Shown: in pieces, positions 23,180-32,641 of the stretch
How the letters are laid out: each line of letters begins with the position of its first letter
Position numbering within the stretch: position 1 is the first letter of the stretch
From: Geobacter sp. SVR
GTDB taxonomy: Bacteria; Desulfobacterota; Desulfuromonadia; Geobacterales; Pseudopelobacteraceae
DNA: 64,000 bases
Assembly: GCF_016865365.1 (NCBI RefSeq)
Contig: NZ_AP024469.1
Span: 921,001-985,000, forward strand
Direction: 5' to 3'
Made by a program: the position numbers and the translations under genes
The notes under the pieces: model-generated
What the model was told of the DNA's origin: nothing
The model's database searches: none
The model's input: the letters and a program-made list of their open reading frames with translations, nothing else

Positions 23180-23456
23180 GGTAGCCTCCCGATTCTCAAA
23201 TAAGGTGCCGTACCATCACACACTCCGTAACCTCTCTTATGTATGTCATTATATCAGAGAGATCGGCGAATGCAGTCGAATGAAATGCGTGCGCATTCTC
23301 CGGAGCGAACGCATGCTGACCTGTGCCGATTCCGTGGAGACCGGAAGATTTCACCGATTCAGGTTTTGATTTAGACAGCGATTTGCGGTAGTTTGATTGC
23401 CCCGCTACGGCGCTTATCGTTGCAACAGCTTCTGTACATCCATCGGAGGTCGGCCA

Positions 23457-24602
23457 ATGAAAATCGTGATTGCTCCGGATTCGTTCAAGGAGAGCCTGTC
23501 AGCACTGGAGGCGGCAGAGCAGATTGCGGCAGGTTTCCGGGAGGTGTTCCCCGATGGCGAGTATGTACTGGTACCTCTGGCCGATGGGGGTGAGGGCACG
23601 GTGCAGGCCATGGTGGCCGCCACCGGCGGCAGGATCGTTCCTGTCGATGCCACTGGTCCCTTGGGAACAGCGGTGCCCGCCTTTTACGGCCTGACAGGGG
23701 ACGGGCGCACCGCCGTCATCGAAATGGCTGCTGCCAGCGGACTGACCCTGGTTCCTCCTGCCCGGCGCAACCCGCTGCTGACCACGACCTACGGCACCGG
23801 TGAGCTGATCCGTTCAGCACTGGCCGAGGGGGTCTCCCGCATCATAGCCGGCATCGGCGGGAGCGCTACCAACGACGGCGGCGCGGGCATGCTCCAGGCC
23901 TTGGGCATGAAGCTGCTCGATGCCCAAGGGGACGAGATCGGGTTCGGCGGTGGCGCCTTGGCCGGTCTGGCCGGGATCGATGCTGGCGGCTTGGTAAGAG
24001 GGGTGCGCGAGGTGAGGATCGAGGTGGCCTGCGATGTGGATAATCCCCTGCTGGGGGTGCGGGGGGCCTCGGCGGTATTCGGCCCGCAGAAGGGGGCTAC
24101 CCCGGATATGGTGGCGCAGCTGGATGCCAATCTGGCCCATTATGCGGCAGTTATCAGCCGTGATCTGGGAGTTGAGGTGGCCACAAGGCCGGGTGCCGGG
24201 GCTGCCGGCGGCATGGGCGCGGCCCTGCTGGCCCTGGGGGGGCGGCTGCGTCCCGGCATTGACATCGTCCTGGATGCAGTCGGTTTCGAGGCCATTGCCC
24301 GGGATGCCGATCTGATCATCACCGGCGAAGGGCGCATCGATGGCCAGACTGCGGGGGGCAAGGCGCCTCTGGGGGTGGCGCGCATCGCCAGCCGGCTGGG
24401 CAAACCGCTGATCGGCATTGCCGGCAGCTTGGGGTCCGATGCAGAAGGGATATATGCCCATGGCATCGATGCCCTTTTCAGTGCGGTGCCCCGGCCATGC
24501 AGCCTGGAGAACGCCCTGGCCGATGCCGCCTCCAACCTCCGCACGGCCGCCCGCAACATTGCCGCAACCATCAGGCTGGGATGCCGGCTGGCCAGGACTT
24601 GA
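23457..24602 (+). CDS. glycerate 2-kinase (GarK/GlxK family)
   Basis: Phosphorylates D-glycerate to 2-phosphoglycerate, feeding glyoxylate or serine-derived carbon into glycolysis. The 381-aa protein shows the family landmarks APDSFKESLSALEAA (N-terminus), PLADGGEGTVQAM (about residues 40-52), IGGSATNDGGAGMLQALG (about 132-149), PGAGAAGGMGAAL and ITGEGRIDGQTAGGKAP (about 285-301). GGAGGT at 23445-23450 supports ATG 23457. It stands alone; no glyoxylate-pathway neighbours are visible. Confidence 0.92.
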   Translation: MKIVIAPDSFKESLSALEAAEQIAAGFREVFPDGEYVLVPLADGGEGTVQAMVAATGGRIVPVDATGPLGTAVPAFYGLTGDGRTAVIEMAAASGLTLVPPARRNPLLTTTYGTGELIRSALAEGVSRIIAGIGGSATNDGGAGMLQALGMKLLDAQGDEIGFGGGALAGLAGIDAGGLVRGVREVRIEVACDVDNPLLGVRGASAVFGPQKGATPDMVAQLDANLAHYAAVISRDLGVEVATRPGAGAAGGMGAALLALGGRLRPGIDIVLDAVGFEAIARDADLIITGEGRIDGQTAGGKAPLGVARIASRLGKPLIGIAGSLGSDAEGIYAHGIDALFSAVPRPCSLENALADAASNLRTAARNIAATIRLGCRLART

Positions 24603-24723
24603 ATCCAGGCATTCCGAGGGGCGTCCCGATACGAAAAAGCCGCTGCCGCACGTGTGCCGGCCCGCTTCCTCATTCATGAAGCGCATATTTTCACGATTAC
24701 ACTGAAACGAGTTTTTGAAGCCC

Positions 24724-25206
24724 ATGAACAAAGAGCACATCATTCAGCACATCATTGCCGAGCTTTCAGCCGATCTGGAGGTTTTCTCCTCCGCTGCCAG
24801 GGCGGCCCACGAGGCAGCCACGCATGAAGAATGCATACCGGACAACAAGTACGATACCACTGCCTTGGAGGCTTCCTATATAGCCCAGGGGCAAGCCAAC
24901 CGGGCCCAGGAGATCCGGGGCGCTTTAAAGGAGTACCAGGCCCTGACGCTGCATGAGTTCGATGACGAAAAGCCGATCCGGCTGACTGCCCTGGTTACCC
25001 TGGAGGACACCGACGGAAATCTCAGGAGGTTGTTTCTCGGCCCGCAGGCGGGGGGCAAGAAGATTGCCGACAGCAACGGGGAGATCGTCGTGATTACGCC
25101 GGCATCTCCTCTGGGGCGGTCGTTGCTGGGGTTGCGCACTGGCGACGAGGTCTGCGCACCCGGGAACGCTGCAGGCATGCCCTTTACCGTCGTCTCCGTC
25201 TCCTGA
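24724..25206 (+). CDS. GreA/GreB-family protein
   Basis: A 160-aa protein. The N-terminal helical region (residues 1-80: SADLEVFSSAARAAHEAATHEE..DNKYDTTALEASYIAQGQANRAQEIRGALKEY) has the length and position of the Gre coiled coil, although the usual acidic tip is not obvious. The C-terminal half fits the Gre FKBP-like domain (LVTLEDTDGNLRRLFLGP, VVITPASPLGRSLLGLRTGDEV). Typical GreA factors rescue backtracked RNA polymerase. Whether this variant does so is uncertain; it may belong to the GreA-like/Rnk group. The start codon choice (ATG 24724 versus TTG 24715) is weakly supported. Confidence 0.68.
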   Translation: MNKEHIIQHIIAELSADLEVFSSAARAAHEAATHEECIPDNKYDTTALEASYIAQGQANRAQEIRGALKEYQALTLHEFDDEKPIRLTALVTLEDTDGNLRRLFLGPQAGGKKIADSNGEIVVITPASPLGRSLLGLRTGDEVCAPGNAAGMPFTVVSVS

Positions 25207-28304: not shown

Positions 28305-28641
28305 GTATTCCATCCATTGCACGTGGTCGTGGCATATCCATGACGGTGCGGCTGCTGTCGCGGTTCATTGCGCAGAACGTCCCCCTTCGGGCGGCAGAAC
28401 TGCGACCGTGAGGGCCGTGCGCAACGGTATGGTGGTGTGCAGGTATCGGAGGAATAACAGGATTCCCCCCCTTTTGCGTTTATCCGATCACATCCGCGGT
28501 TTTCGGCCAAAGCAGGGAGGAAGCGTGGGGGTGCCGGGCGATCAACTCGGGAGTGACGGGATGTTGGAGATGTAACAGCGACTATGACTGTCCAAAGGGG
28601 ATAACCACCACCTTTCGTTCGTTTTTTTTCGTATTCCAAAT

Positions 28642-28669
28642 AAAAAAAGGCCACGGGAGAACCGTGGCC
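28642..28669 (-). terminator. intrinsic terminator of the candidate ncRNA
   Basis: The minus strand reads GGCCACGG-TTCTC-CCGTGGCC followed by seven Ts. The hairpin is followed by a T-run only in this orientation, which fixes the strand of the transcript. The sequence from 28305 to 28641, between this terminator and the permease start, shows no gene or motif I can support. Confidence 0.85.
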
Positions 28670-28850
28670 GGACGATAACGCGCCTCAATTCCCCACTCGT
28701 AGGTTTTCAGCAGTGCACAACGTAGGTCATCTGACCAGCTACCTTGGGTAAGGCCTTAATCCGGCAATACCTGGTCTACCCATTGGCGTCTTTCGACGTT
28801 TCCGGGCAGTAGCCTGTGTTTGTGCAAACGCCTCATGCTAACGAGGAACT
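28642..28850 (-). ncRNA. candidate structured non-coding RNA of about 200 nt
   Basis: On the minus strand a promoter-like TTGACT (28881-28886) is followed by a region with several complementary segments. TGCACAA/TTGTGCA (28820-28826 with 28714-28720) closes two arms: CGTC-GAAA-GACG (28787-28798) inside a CTA..CCC/GGGTAG stem, and GACCAG/CTGGTC (28771-28776 with 28733-28738) extended by compensating pairs. The transcript would end at the strong intrinsic terminator at 28642-28669. No ORF fits the region. It matches no riboswitch class I recognise. It could be an independent sRNA, a 6S-type RNA, or a leader of the ABC operon, although the terminator lies 338 nt before that operon. Confidence 0.5.
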
Positions 28851-29083
28851 ATCATGTAACTACTACCCTGCGATGGATAAAGTCAACGCTTTTCAGCAGC
28901 AAGCCGGATACTTCCTGACGCGGTCACCTTCATGCGGACTCGGTGCAACAGGATCTCCCGGAGAGAGCATTCAGTCCTCATGCGTGACGCCGCGAGCGGA
29001 TGGTGACAAAAGCGTGAAAGGTCCGGCTGTTGCACAGCATGCGCAAGGTGATACAGTTCAAGTAAAGCATGCGGGAGGATACC

Positions 29084-29527
29084 ATGAACATCCTGAAAGG
29101 TATCGCGGGTGGAGCATTGCTGCTGGTCGCGGCACAGGCCGTGCCGGTCGATGCTCCGGCGGGCAGCCGGCCGCAATGGCAGGTGCTGTTCGGCGACAAG
29201 GATTCACAAAACTCCTATGACAAGGCAAACGTGAAGAAAAACGGAAATATCATCACCGTTACCACCAGGATTGCCTATACCGCCAAGGGAAAGGCGGATG
29301 CGCTGGAGCTGTTGAAATACCCCCAGGGCTTTGACGACCTCGCCTACACCATCTACGTGCACGATACCAATTGCAGCGACATGATCAACAAACTGCGCAC
29401 GGTGACCCATTACAACAGCAAGGGGGCGGAGATCAGAAACGTGGACATGTCGGGCGTGGCGGAATGGGAAAAGATCCAGCCGGACTCGCTCATGGAAATG
29501 GTGGCAAATGCGGAGTGCCCGCGGTAG
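29084..29527 (+). CDS. secreted protein resembling surface-adhesin protein E
   Basis: A 147-aa protein with a signal peptide (residues 1-22, cut near VPVDA). A single domain follows the SAE/adhesin E pattern: QWQVLFGDKDSQNSYDKANVKKNGNIITVTTRIAY, a Cys in YVHDTNCSDMINKLRTVTHYNSKG, and a final IQPDSLMEMVANAECP whose Cys probably pairs with the first. Similar small periplasmic proteins are widespread, with unproven roles. ATG 29084 follows GGGAGGAT. It appears monocistronic, ending at the hairpin at 29583. Confidence 0.65.
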   Translation: MNILKGIAGGALLLVAAQAVPVDAPAGSRPQWQVLFGDKDSQNSYDKANVKKNGNIITVTTRIAYTAKGKADALELLKYPQGFDDLAYTIYVHDTNCSDMINKLRTVTHYNSKGAEIRNVDMSGVAEWEKIQPDSLMEMVANAECPR

Positions 29528-29626: not shown

Positions 29627-30304
29627 TTAGTCGCGTTGGTATCCCAGGGAGTCGTGGCAACTGGTGGTGCAGTTCCCCCCCTTGTCCGTGGCGGTGTAGG
29701 TGATGGTAACCGCTTCCGCGCCTTTGGCTCCCTTCGGCCGCATCAGGTAAAGCTGTTGGCTGGCATGGGCATCGTGGCAGGTGAGACAGGGGATGGCAGC
29801 GCCCTTCCTGCCGGCATGCAGGTAGTGCAGATTCTGCGTGCCGTCGCGGAATCCGGTCTTGGTGGTTTCCCGCTCTTTTACCAGCGCGCAATCGTGGCAT
29901 TCGAAGCAGAGTTTTTCCGGCTTGGCCCTGAGCAGTTTCCGGTGCGGCGAATTATGGGGGGCGTGGCAGCCAAGGCATTCGTTCGCCATGATGGGAGGGT
30001 GCACGCTCTTTTGGTTTGACTGGTTATCGTGGCACTCGTAGCACAGTGTGGCACTCCTGTCCTTGACGGCATAGAGGCTGTGATCGCTCTGATGGTTGCC
30101 GGGCCTGGTCTGGTGGCAGGGGGTGCATTCTTTGCCGGCCACCGCTTCGTGCACGTACCGGCCGGTAATCTTGCTCCGATGGCATTGATGGCAGGGCTTG
30201 CCGTTGGAAGGATCGATGGTCCCCTGTGCATCAGCCATAGAGGCGGGCATCTGAAAAATGACTGCAGGCAGAGCAAGCATCAAAGCGGCAAGGGTCTTTT
30301 TCAT
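29627..30304 (-). CDS. periplasmic multihaem c-type cytochrome
   Basis: A 225-aa exported protein (signal peptide to about residue 26, SMADA). It has six CXXCH haem-binding motifs (CHQCH, CTPCH, CYECH, CLGCH, CFECH, CLTCH) and a seventh, atypical CX3CH (CTTSCH) near the C-terminus. The spacing resembles doubled-CXXCH and DmsE/MtrA-like electron-transfer cytochromes. It would carry electrons in the periplasm, consistent with a metal-reducing lifestyle. It has no lipobox or membrane anchor. No partner oxidoreductase lies beside it, so its redox partners are unknown. Confidence 0.9.
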   Translation of the reverse strand: MKKTLAALMLALPAVIFQMPASMADAQGTIDPSNGKPCHQCHRSKITGRYVHEAVAGKECTPCHQTRPGNHQSDHSLYAVKDRSATLCYECHDNQSNQKSVHPPIMANECLGCHAPHNSPHRKLLRAKPEKLCFECHDCALVKERETTKTGFRDGTQNLHYLHAGRKGAAIPCLTCHDAHASQQLYLMRPKGAKGAEAVTITYTATDKGGNCTTSCHDSLGYQRD

Positions 30305-30545: not shown

Positions 30546-31433
30546 TCATCCCCCGTAAACCTCGGGGGAGCCTGCCAGCGCCAGCCAAGCCTGTGCCGCG
30601 TGCGACAGATAACCGCCGCGCCGCCAGACCAGGGCCATGTGCCAGTAGATCGCGGGGTGCCCGACTGCGACGCGTTTCGTCAGGGGATGCGGCCGCTGTT
30701 CGGCGATCAAGCGTGGCAGCAGGGCAACGCCGAGCTTGGCGGCCACAAGCTCGATGATGAAATCGATCTGGCTCGACTGGGTCGCCACGCTGGGCGTGAA
30801 GCCGCTTGCCCGGCACGCCTCCAAAATGATGGGGTTGAGCGCAAACTCCGGTCCGTACAGGATAAACGGCATATCAGCCAACTCTTCGAAGGCGAGCGTG
30901 TCGCATTCAGCCAGTGGATGGTCGGCTGCCAGCAGGAGATCAATCGGTTCCCGTCGCACCTCCTGCCACTCGAATTCTTCACTGATCGGCAGCAGCGAAG
31001 CGGCCAGGTCCAGTTCACCGGCCAGTACCAGTTCTTCCAGGCGTTTGCTGCCATTCTCCACCAGTTTAATGTCCACATCCGGATAGCGGCTCCGATAGGC
31101 GGCAAACCAGCGGGCAAAAAGGGTGTTGCTGCCAATCAAGGGAAATCCCAGACGCAGGGTGCCCCCCGCAAGATTCCGCAATTCCTCCAATTCTATCTTC
31201 AAATCGTCGGCCTGCGCCAGGATCGTCAAGGCGCGACGGTAAACGATTTCGCCGGCCTCCGTCAGCCTGCTGCGGTGGCCGATCCGTTCGAGCAACCGGA
31301 GCCCCAGTTCATCTTCCAGCTGTTTGACCGCCTTGCTTACTGTCGATTGAGTCGCAAACACCGTCCTGGCGGCTCTCGAAAAACCCCCTTGACGAACCAC
31401 CTCGACCAATGCCCGCAATGTCCGGATTTCCAT
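30546..31433 (-). CDS. LysR-family regulator divergent from cidA/lrgB-like genes
   Basis: A 295-aa LysR regulator. The HTH lies in residues 1-60 (MEIRTLRALVEVVRQGGFSRAARTVFATQSTVSKAVKQLEDELG), followed by a LysR substrate domain (about 90-290; LRLGFPLIGSNTLFARWFAAYRSRYPDVD). It is read divergently from CidA/LrgB-like genes. That resembles the CidR-type arrangement in which a LysR protein responds to acetate or overflow metabolism, so it probably activates them. An interrupted palindrome at 31463-31480 in the divergent promoter is a candidate site. Confidence 0.9.
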   Translation of the reverse strand: MEIRTLRALVEVVRQGGFSRAARTVFATQSTVSKAVKQLEDELGLRLLERIGHRSRLTEAGEIVYRRALTILAQADDLKIELEELRNLAGGTLRLGFPLIGSNTLFARWFAAYRSRYPDVDIKLVENGSKRLEELVLAGELDLAASLLPISEEFEWQEVRREPIDLLLAADHPLAECDTLAFEELADMPFILYGPEFALNPIILEACRASGFTPSVATQSSQIDFIIELVAAKLGVALLPRLIAEQRPHPLTKRVAVGHPAIYWHMALVWRRGGYLSHAAQAWLALAGSPEVYGG

Positions 31434-31462
31434 TTTTATTCCATTTCTGAATTATTTCGAGT

Positions 31463-31480
31463 CATAAAATTCATTTTACG
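31463..31480. promoter_or_regulatory. candidate LysR operator
   Basis: CATAAAAT-TC-ATTTTACG is an 18-nt palindrome with one mismatch, 29 nt upstream of the LysR start in the divergent region. It shares the CATAAAATT.ATTT core with the site at 4332-4348 in front of the first LysR gene. Confidence 0.5.
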
Positions 31481-31530
31481 AATAGCATGATTCGCCCTAT
31501 GATGCAATCAAGCAAGCGAAAGGAGCTTCC

Positions 31531-31953
31531 ATGAACAGGTATCGACGTATGAGCGTTTGGCGGCGGCGCTGTCGTTCCAGCCGGTTGTTTCAGGCGCTTC
31601 TCATTCTGGGCTTCTGGCTGGGCGGCGAGATTATCGTGCGTTGGACCGGGCTGCCGCTTCCCGGAGCTATTGCAGGATTGTTCATCATGCTCGCTTTGCT
31701 GGGAAGCGGGCGGCTCAGCATTGGAACGGTGCGCCGCGGAGCGCAGTGGTTTCTGGCCGAGATGCTTCTCTTCTTCGTGCCCGCAGTGCTGGCGGTGCTG
31801 GATCATCCGGAGTTACTCGGTCTGCTGGGGCTGAAGATCCTGGCGGTAATCGTGCTGGGCACGCTGATCGTCATGATTGTCACGGCAACGGTCATGGACG
31901 TTTGTTTTCGCCTGAGCGTCGCCGGGAAGGGGCATGCCGATGTCGCAGAGTAG
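31531..31953 (+). CDS. CidA/LrgA holin-like membrane protein
   Basis: A 140-aa protein with four predicted membrane helices. The family hallmarks are LILGFWLGGEIIVRWTGLPLPGAIAGLFIMLALL (TM1-TM2 with the GLPLPG turn), VRRGAQWFLAEMLLFFVPAVLAVL and a last hydrophobic helix. CidA/LrgA proteins are holin-like and influence murein hydrolase activity and lysis; newer work links them to pyruvate/acetate movement. The basic N-terminus (MNRYRRMSVWRRRCRSSR) is longer than usual. It overlaps the LrgB-like gene by 20 nt. Confidence 0.85.
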   Translation: MNRYRRMSVWRRRCRSSRLFQALLILGFWLGGEIIVRWTGLPLPGAIAGLFIMLALLGSGRLSIGTVRRGAQWFLAEMLLFFVPAVLAVLDHPELLGLLGLKILAVIVLGTLIVMIVTATVMDVCFRLSVAGKGHADVAE

Positions 31954-32641
31954 CGACTGGCTGTTCAGGGCGCTATGGTGGTCAGTGTTGACCATTGCGC
32001 TCTACATGTTCGGGAAAGCGTTGTACCGCCGCTGGCCCAGCTGGTGGTCGTCGCCGTTGTTGGTGGCGCCGCTGCTGTTGATCATGGCTGCGCTCGCGTC
32101 TCATGTGACTTATCGGGAGTATAGCCGGGGGACGCACTGGCTGGTCGCCCTGCTTGCCCCGGCAACGGTCTCGTTTGCCGTTCCGATCTACGAACAGCGC
32201 ATGCTGATACGTCGGCACTGGCTGCCGCTACTCGTCGGAGTACTGGTGGGGAGTATCACGGCGATAGTCTCTTCATGGCTACTGGCGCGTCTGTTCGGAC
32301 TGAGTGATCTCGTACGTCTGAGTCTGCTGCCGCGCTCCCTGAGCACCCCCTTTGCCATGACCGTTTCAGGCGATCTCGGCGGTGCACCGGCGCTTACCGC
32401 TGTGTTCGTGGTAATTACCGGCGTTTTGGGTGCGGCGATGGGGGAGGGGCTGCTCAACTGCCTGCCGCTGCGATCTGTTCTGGCGCAAGGGGCGCTCTTC
32501 GGCATGGGCGCCCACGGGGCTGGTACTGCCAAGGCGCACCAGATTGACGGGGAAATCGGTGCCATTGCAGGGCTCGTCATGGTGCTCGTCGGCATGCTCA
32601 ATGTCCTGGCTGCTCCGCTGCTTGCCCATATCCTGCACTGA
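31934..32641 (+). CDS. LrgB/CidB-family membrane protein
   Basis: A 235-aa protein with about seven membrane helices. The LrgB signatures are SPLLVAPLLLIMAALASHVTYREY, LLAPATVSFAVPIYEQ, LLPRSLSTPFAMTVSGDLGGAPALTAVFVVITG and LFGMGAHGAGTAKA. It partners the CidA/LrgA-like protein encoded just upstream, with which it overlaps. ATG 31934 is favoured by GGAAGGGG at 31924-31932; ATG 31940 is possible. The 32642-32889 gap after it holds no visible feature apart from an AT-rich lead into rdgC. Confidence 0.88.
   Translation: MPMSQSSDWLFRALWWSVLTIALYMFGKALYRRWPSWWSSPLLVAPLLLIMAALASHVTYREYSRGTHWLVALLAPATVSFAVPIYEQRMLIRRHWLPLLVGVLVGSITAIVSSWLLARLFGLSDLVRLSLLPRSLSTPFAMTVSGDLGGAPALTAVFVVITGVLGAAMGEGLLNCLPLRSVLAQGALFGMGAHGAGTAKAHQIDGEIGAIAGLVMVLVGMLNVLAAPLLAHILH

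Follow-up and report, generated by a model that had tools for sequence, protein, structure and literature searches.

Upstream of an ABC transporter operon of Geobacter sp. SVR, the minus strand of the window (by which we mean the whole 64,000-nucleotide stretch of DNA that was analysed) contains a compact structured RNA between positions 28642 and 28886, which raises the question of what kind of RNA this is and what signal it might convey to the genes behind it. A preliminary description had held that the RNA fits none of the riboswitch consensus patterns, an assessment that was mistaken. A search with Rfam covariance models (cmscan), which had been proposed as a check, identified the segment from 28852 to 28685 as an M-box (ykoK) Mg2+ riboswitch aptamer, RF00380, the score of 143.6 bits standing against a gathering score of 44 and the match extending over the full length of the model (1-169 of 169). 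The covariance-model E-value of 1.8e-32 is the decisive number for this identity, and RF00380 was the sole Rfam match over cut-off within the 64-kb window. The structured RNA is thus an M-box magnesium riboswitch, and the riboswitch itself is of an already known kind. Both the closed multi-branch fold and the GAAA tetraloop that had been seen by eye are those of the aptamer, and the folding energy of the segment 28852-28642 is moderately better than that of shuffled sequences (z -2.08; 3 of 200 as good). The terminator described earlier as textbook deserves that name: its stem-loop (28669-28649, minus strand) has 8 pairs, 7 of them G-C, and is followed by a run of seven T at 28648-28642. In agreement with the statement that no ORF explains the RNA, no gene-like frame was seen over the aptamer on inspection of a list of ORFs of at least 60 aa. 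Further upstream, the window contains a gene for an Adhesin_E-like protein, with a score just over cut-off (29069-29527, plus strand), a multihaem CXXCH cytochrome gene with Paired_CXXCH_1 and Cytochrome_C7 matches (29627-30304, minus strand) and, at 30546-32641, a LysR-type regulator gene and an LrgA-LrgB pair in divergent orientation.

The same description had also entertained an independent small RNA, either an sRNA or a 6S-like RNA, that ends at the terminator. A promoter-like box and a terminator of its own would suit such an RNA, and short RNAs can build up from terminated riboswitch leaders; against it stand the full-length riboswitch match, the linkage to transporter genes in relatives and the lack of any sRNA family over cut-off (the best was isrD, with 18.7 bits against 37). 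We regard both forms of this proposal as unsupported and extremely improbable. The promoter-like box itself fared partly well. The minus-strand TTGACT is located at 28881-28886 as had been stated, and it is probably a real -35 box, because TTGACA recurs upstream of the M-boxes of relatives: among 40 M-box loci whose upstream sequence is long enough, 27 have it at a distance of up to 75 nt, and 22 of these 27 have TATA- or TAAA-like bases at the spacing of a -10 box. What did not hold up is the remainder of a promoter in the window, where the candidate -10 sequence (TAGTTA, 28857-28862, 18-nt spacing) is poor and a consensus promoter scan found no promoter at the TTGACT box.

The direction in which the riboswitch would act concerns its 3' end. 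The 3' strand of aptamer stem P1 (28698-28686, minus strand) includes GGGGAAUU, which is complementary to the terminator loop GGUUCUCC, inside 28656-28664, and might serve as an antiterminator. The two strands change together between loci, as in the combinations GGGGAACC/GGUUCUCC, GAGGAAG/CUUCCUC and GGGGAAA/UUUCUCC. Against shuffles, 15 of 41 loci reached a p of at most 0.05 for this pairing, a rough count in that the wrong T-run was probably taken in some of them; the p of the window, 0.205, is not significant. By analogy with other members of the M-box family, we infer the usual layout of P1 versus terminator, ON at low Mg2+. With enough Mg2+ the aptamer would close P1, the terminator would form and transcription would stop; when Mg2+ is scarce, the 3' P1 strand would pair with the terminator loop and transcription would continue into the ABC permease-ATPase operon ~380 nt downstream. 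The 4.72-Mb genome carries two M-boxes, the other of which precedes a PRC-MgtE_N-CBS gene and an Nramp-like gene, the latter 35% identical to the Nramp of locus L044.

The distance of 381 nt between the M-box and the operon leaves room for more than a terminator. Two types of sequence follow the M-box terminator in relatives: in the first a gene starts a few tens of nt past the terminator, and in the second the terminator is followed by a further leader, a few hundred nt long, whose shared motif consists of a short ORF and a Shine-Dalgarno-like (SD-like) sequence. The window belongs to the second type, and its second leader element (28615-28451, a short ORF and a hairpin) had been missed because the preliminary description ended at the terminator. 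On the minus strand the SD-like AAAGGTGGTGG lies at 28615-28605, and the leader ORF of 17 codons, with a TTG start and a TGA stop (MDSHSRCYISNIPSLPS), extends from 28595 to 28542. A sequence-only model of the element, searched over 141 genomes of the order Geobacterales (E<=0.01), matched 48 places in 45 genomes; three weak places without an SD sequence or ORF were dropped, leaving 45 places in 42 genomes. As many as 42 of the 45 places sit behind an M-box (39 recognized by a sequence pattern that ends 98-127 nt upstream and 3 by RF00380 coordinates), the exceptions being G018, G036 and a second copy in G053. Viewed from the other side, the order has 95 M-box matches, and the leader ORF follows 42 of them. 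In a class sample of 277 genomes (E<=1e-4) the element matched 41 genomes, all of them in the order and none outside it, and no Rfam family reached its cut-off on the second leader element. The copies that depart from the rule are varied. In G053 (L083) the ORF without an M-box precedes an OprB-type porin gene ~3.4 kb downstream of the M-box of that genome, and in G036 (L090) the ORF lies behind a TTGACA...TATAAG-like sequence and before PRC-MgtE_N and Nramp genes. Two copies with an M-box match, in G109 contig 28 (L086) and G110 (L088), look degenerate; one of these ORFs reads through, and an MFS gene follows the other. For the second element a sigma-54 promoter was considered and set aside, as its spacing, judged by eye, does not fit.

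Whether the short ORF is translated can be approached through the features that its copies have kept. An in-frame stop occurs after 13-20 codons at 44 of the 45 places (there is none within 50 codons in G109 contig 28), and a GGTGG/GGAGG-like SD stretch precedes the ORF at 45 of 45, although this pattern was searched for, no place failing. The 34 distinct ORFs start with TTG (32), GTG (1) or ATG (1), stop with TAA (21), TAG (7) or TGA (6), and are exactly 17 codons long in 24 instances. In 16 representatives with <65% identity past codon 5, the ORF ends at 13-20 aa every time and at exactly 17 in 8, where dinucleotide shuffles give expectations of 15% and 2% per sequence, respectively; the nominal P of 1e-13 for the stop position is too small, since the sequences are related. 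Of 19 representatives, 13 and 8 have no stop in the other two frames, respectively, and the remaining ones have their first stop at scattered positions. In a codon-substitution test, on the other hand, in-frame changes were no more often synonymous or conservative than expected, so that the claim of an ORF is based on stop position, start codons and the SD sequence and not on peptide conservation. We conclude from these comparisons that the length of the ORF, that is, the point at which a ribosome would stop, appears to be under selection, and that selection on the second half of the predicted leader peptide is unsupported by the substitution test.

The negative substitution test would also agree with a different reading, in which the second element is an RNA motif, such as a second aptamer or a protein-binding site, and not a translated ORF. 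The nucleotides GGA.AGTCATAGT hardly vary, codons 3-5 are conserved as nucleotide sequence, and no synonymous change was seen in the two Ser codons. An RNA motif of this kind would not, however, readily explain why diverged sequences keep the in-frame stop position with all three stop codons in use, why first stops in the other two frames are absent or scattered, why an SD-like sequence precedes the ORF, or why GTG and ATG can each once replace TTG; we consider this reading unlikely. The predicted peptides begin M-D/E/G-S, the second residue being acidic in 28 of 31 distinct peptides. Their proline content (0.154, compared with 0.142 in shuffles) is not above composition, and neither an EPDP-like nor a proline-enriched destabilising sequence was found in them. 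Proline sensing of the type known for mgtL and mgtP was not adopted, as proline is no higher than base composition gives.

The leader ORF, which we prefer to read as translated, runs with its 3' half into the 5' arm of a long hairpin, where its stop codon also falls within the hairpin, so that a translating ribosome would set the fold of the downstream RNA. In the window (minus strand) the 5' arm of this predicted attenuator hairpin, Pa, is ATCCCGTCAC at 28562-28553, inside the ORF, and its 3' arm is GTGATCGGAT at 28491-28482, with 9 of 10 positions pairing by eye. The stem covaries in relatives: in an alignment of 23 leaders, 94.3% of the cells of stems Pa and Pc are paired, with compensatory change at 4 pairs in 9 cells. 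None of 500 shuffles equalled these stems for pairing, cells or score, while 7 did so for pairs and 65 for pair types. RNAalifold, given the same alignment, returned 15 pairs, 7 of them with compensatory change, and a small covariation term. A possible alternative stem, with arms TTCCTCCC (28522-28515) and GGGGGGAA (28470-28463, overlapping a 3' hairpin at 28467-28451), shares its middle strand with Pc and is 81.2% paired in relatives versus 48-61% in slid controls; across five measures, 20 to 310 of 500 shuffles reached values as high, which is weak support in relatives. For the attenuator region of the window itself, the folding energy does not stand out from that of shuffled sequences (z -0.09, matched by 88 of 200). 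The combination of ORF and hairpin resembles the ribosome-read attenuators of mgtL, corL and mgtP, and by this analogy a second checkpoint past the terminator, possibly with a Rho step as at enterobacterial mgtA and corA, might operate here.

The identity of the genes behind the leader ORF indicates what such a tandem might serve. The first genes behind 44 of these ORFs were grouped by clustering, and typing of representatives assigned them to P-type Mg2+ ATPases (17), Nramp (9), PRC-MgtE_N (7), ABC transporters (6), CorA (3), an OprB porin (1) and an MFS protein (1). The P-type ATPase representative matched the TIGR01524 Mg2+ ATPase model with 1069 bits (cut-off 611), and the PRC-MgtE_N representative that was typed is that of the other M-box locus of this genome (L002), a relative of the type without a leader ORF. 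One of the 6 ABC cases has a DDE transposase gene between leader ORF and permease. Nramp-related Mg2+ transport behind M-boxes has already been published (PMC4072509).

In the window the proposal of a leader of the ABC operon has proved sound, the M-box and its intrinsic terminator being upstream of, and co-directional with, a permease-ATPase pair, in a linkage that recurs in other genera. The first gene (28304-26580, minus strand; alternative GTG start at 28322) encodes a fused ABC importer permease of 574 aa with two BPD_transp_1 stretches (PF00528), and the second (26567-25254, minus strand) an ABC ATPase of 437 aa with a C-terminal AAA_assoc_C domain (PF00005 and PF09821). The next typed genes past the ATPase, for GreA/GreB (24715-25206) and glycerate kinase (23454-24602), are on the plus strand. 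None of the named NCBIfam ABC importer families scored above cut-off (the best were 209.6 against 360 for the ATPase and 79.8 against 209 for the permease). The transporter family occurs in many Proteobacteria and some Chlorobi, and the permease is present in 11 of the 141 genomes of the order, 6 of which have an M-box upstream on the same strand. The distance from M-box to permease is 100 nt in G060, 381 in the window, 438, 438 and 439 in G071, G072 and G078, and 1694 in G064, where a transposase gene intervenes. Citrifermentans bremense (L121) shows the same arrangement and is not an extra case beside G072. Among the other five genomes, G018 (an assembly 74% complete) has the leader ORF before the operon and no M-box that was found; in G083 the contig begins 289 nt upstream of the permease, too short to tell; and no M-box lies upstream of the permease in G003, G012 and G129, the first two being without any M-box match.

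A clue to the role of the operon comes from a genus (g17) in which different transporters occupy one chromosomal slot. The order of genes there is an FtsX-type permease gene, a cNMP/sigma54/4Fe-4S gene, the cassette of M-box and leader ORF, a variable segment and a sensor kinase gene (the names of the permease and kinase genes are those we presume from their sequences). The variable segment is the ABC operon in G071, G072 and G078 and includes mgtA in G054 and G068, with both flanks in common; in G056, which also has mgtA in the slot, only the downstream neighbour is kept. Between G071 and G068 the flanking orthologues are 80%, 81% and 71% identical and the cassette is 84% identical over 305 bp. 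A PTS EIIA-like gene follows mgtA in G056 and G068 (that of G068 was typed). Close MgtA orthologues (72% or more) are found in 19 of the 141 genomes, and only G083, an assembly in 370 contigs, has both an MgtA orthologue and the ABC permease. In G001, a congener of the organism of the window, the cassette (83% over 276 bp) precedes mgtA, an EIIA-like gene and a gene of a cation-efflux cluster, which in G060 and G064 is represented behind the ABC ATPase (the G060 gene was typed). The flanking genes of the window and G001 show no match, the cassette alone being shared. Since the slot holds either the ABC operon or MgtA behind the same cassette, the ABC operon probably stands in for MgtA.

These observations bear directly on the cargo of the transporter. 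It could be argued that the M-box and cassette are correctly read and that the cargo of the ABC transporter is nonetheless not Mg2+ but, for example, a solute that is needed, or a substitute such as a polyamine, at low Mg2+. The nearest solved chains by sequence are the nitrate transport proteins and CmpB and CmpD, CmpB being a bicarbonate permease; no binding-protein gene is present in the operon; outside the order, no M-box was found at any of the 13 ABC loci tested of the 80 found; and two of the short-ORF cassettes precede the OprB porin and MFS genes. The exchange with MgtA at one slot speaks against another cargo, as do the prevalence of Mg2+-transport-related families among the other frequent targets of the cassette and the co-occurrence of MgtA orthologue and ABC permease in G083 only. 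Four acidic residues in hydrophobic stretches of the permease (D101, E131, E207 and D252), conserved in 81 sequences, are compatible with a cation, though not specifically so. We give the alternative of a non-Mg2+ cargo a substantial chance, somewhat short of even. Among the 80 ABC loci no consistent partner of the operon emerged, the largest neighbour cluster (beyond permease, ATPase and out-of-frame ORFs) covering 11. At 8 of the 80 (L147, L150, L153, L157, L170, L171, L180 and L185) the homologous permease gene is preceded, within 3 kb and in the same orientation, by a CorA gene, a proximity that we count as weak because all eight belong to one clade, Duganella/Rugamonas.

Predicted expression at low Mg2+ combined with residence in the slot of MgtA makes Mg2+ uptake our leading guess and the most likely predicted function of the ABC transporter. 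With good confidence, then, the best explanation of the locus is that the M-box controls the ABC operon, that a second, ORF-attenuator checkpoint follows it, that the transporter would be expressed only at low Mg2+, and that Mg2+ is its likeliest cargo. A bolder version is more tentative, and we would put its chances distinctly below even: that a fused-permease/AAA_assoc_C ABC transporter without a substrate-binding protein is an ATP-driven Mg2+ importer, of a class not so far assigned to Mg2+, which in the Geobacterales has displaced MgtA in place behind a two-layer sensor of M-box and ribosome-reading leader ORF. In either version the M-box assigns a low-Mg2+ regulatory signal to an ABC transporter family without an assigned substrate, and from the in-place exchange with MgtA follows a specific claim open to experiment, namely that Mg2+ can be supplied by an ABC transporter. 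Placed in tandem, an aptamer and a leader read by the ribosome would allow two checks on Mg2+, one by direct binding and the other through translation, and nature has provided constructs with the M-box alone, the ORF alone and both.

In the literature searched, no M-box was reported ahead of an ABC transporter (one review that has both terms uses them in unconnected passages), ABC-type Mg2+ transporters had single mentions in four papers and none in a title or abstract, and the word ABC is absent from a review of Mg2+ transporters (PMC9276622). Nor was the Geobacterales leader ORF reported there; this coverage included some of the eight uORF candidates listed by a survey of bacterial non-coding RNAs (50 genomes, one of them a Geobacter; PMC11109978).

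Comparison with known systems places the locus between several of them. As in other RF00380 M-boxes, such as that of Bacillus subtilis mgtE, there is a full-length aptamer and an intrinsic terminator with a P1 strand complementary to it; unlike the usual M-boxes, which precede MgtE, MgtA, CorA or NrmT, this one has as its target an ABC operon without an assigned substrate, and a second, ORF-containing leader element then follows. The permease and ATPase are homologous to CmpB, CmpD and the nitrate ABC importers, from which they differ by two permease stretches per chain, the AAA_assoc_C domain on the ATPase and an operon without a binding-protein gene. The closest parallel in reasoning is NrmT, an Nramp-related Mg2+ transporter which, in a report that names Clostridia and Deltaproteobacteria, was found through its M-box and characterized with transport data (PMC4072509); there as here Mg2+ is suggested by an M-box in front of a transporter supposed to have a different substrate, the present one being an ABC transporter. 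The leaders of enterobacterial mgtL, corL and mgtP likewise have a short ORF in the leader of an Mg2+ transporter with alternative downstream folds (PMC11552253, PMC11282234, PMC3641672), and the attenuators at mgtA and corA act through Rho. The Geobacterales leader differs from them in being without an EPDP motif or proline enrichment, in its combination with an M-box and in a role for Rho that is conjectural, and the acidic second residue of most of its peptides may be compared with theirs. For the pairing of an M-box with a conserved short uORF behind it, Mycobacterium tuberculosis offers a precedent, with another peptide and a translational platform: the pe20 Mbox, with uORF rv1805A, acts via this platform and Rho, the peptide is specific to mycobacteria, and a homologous ORF is, as in the Geobacterales, also known without an M-box (PMC12810186). 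Unlike pe20, the locus described here has an intrinsic terminator and then an ORF of 13-20 codons that overlaps a hairpin.
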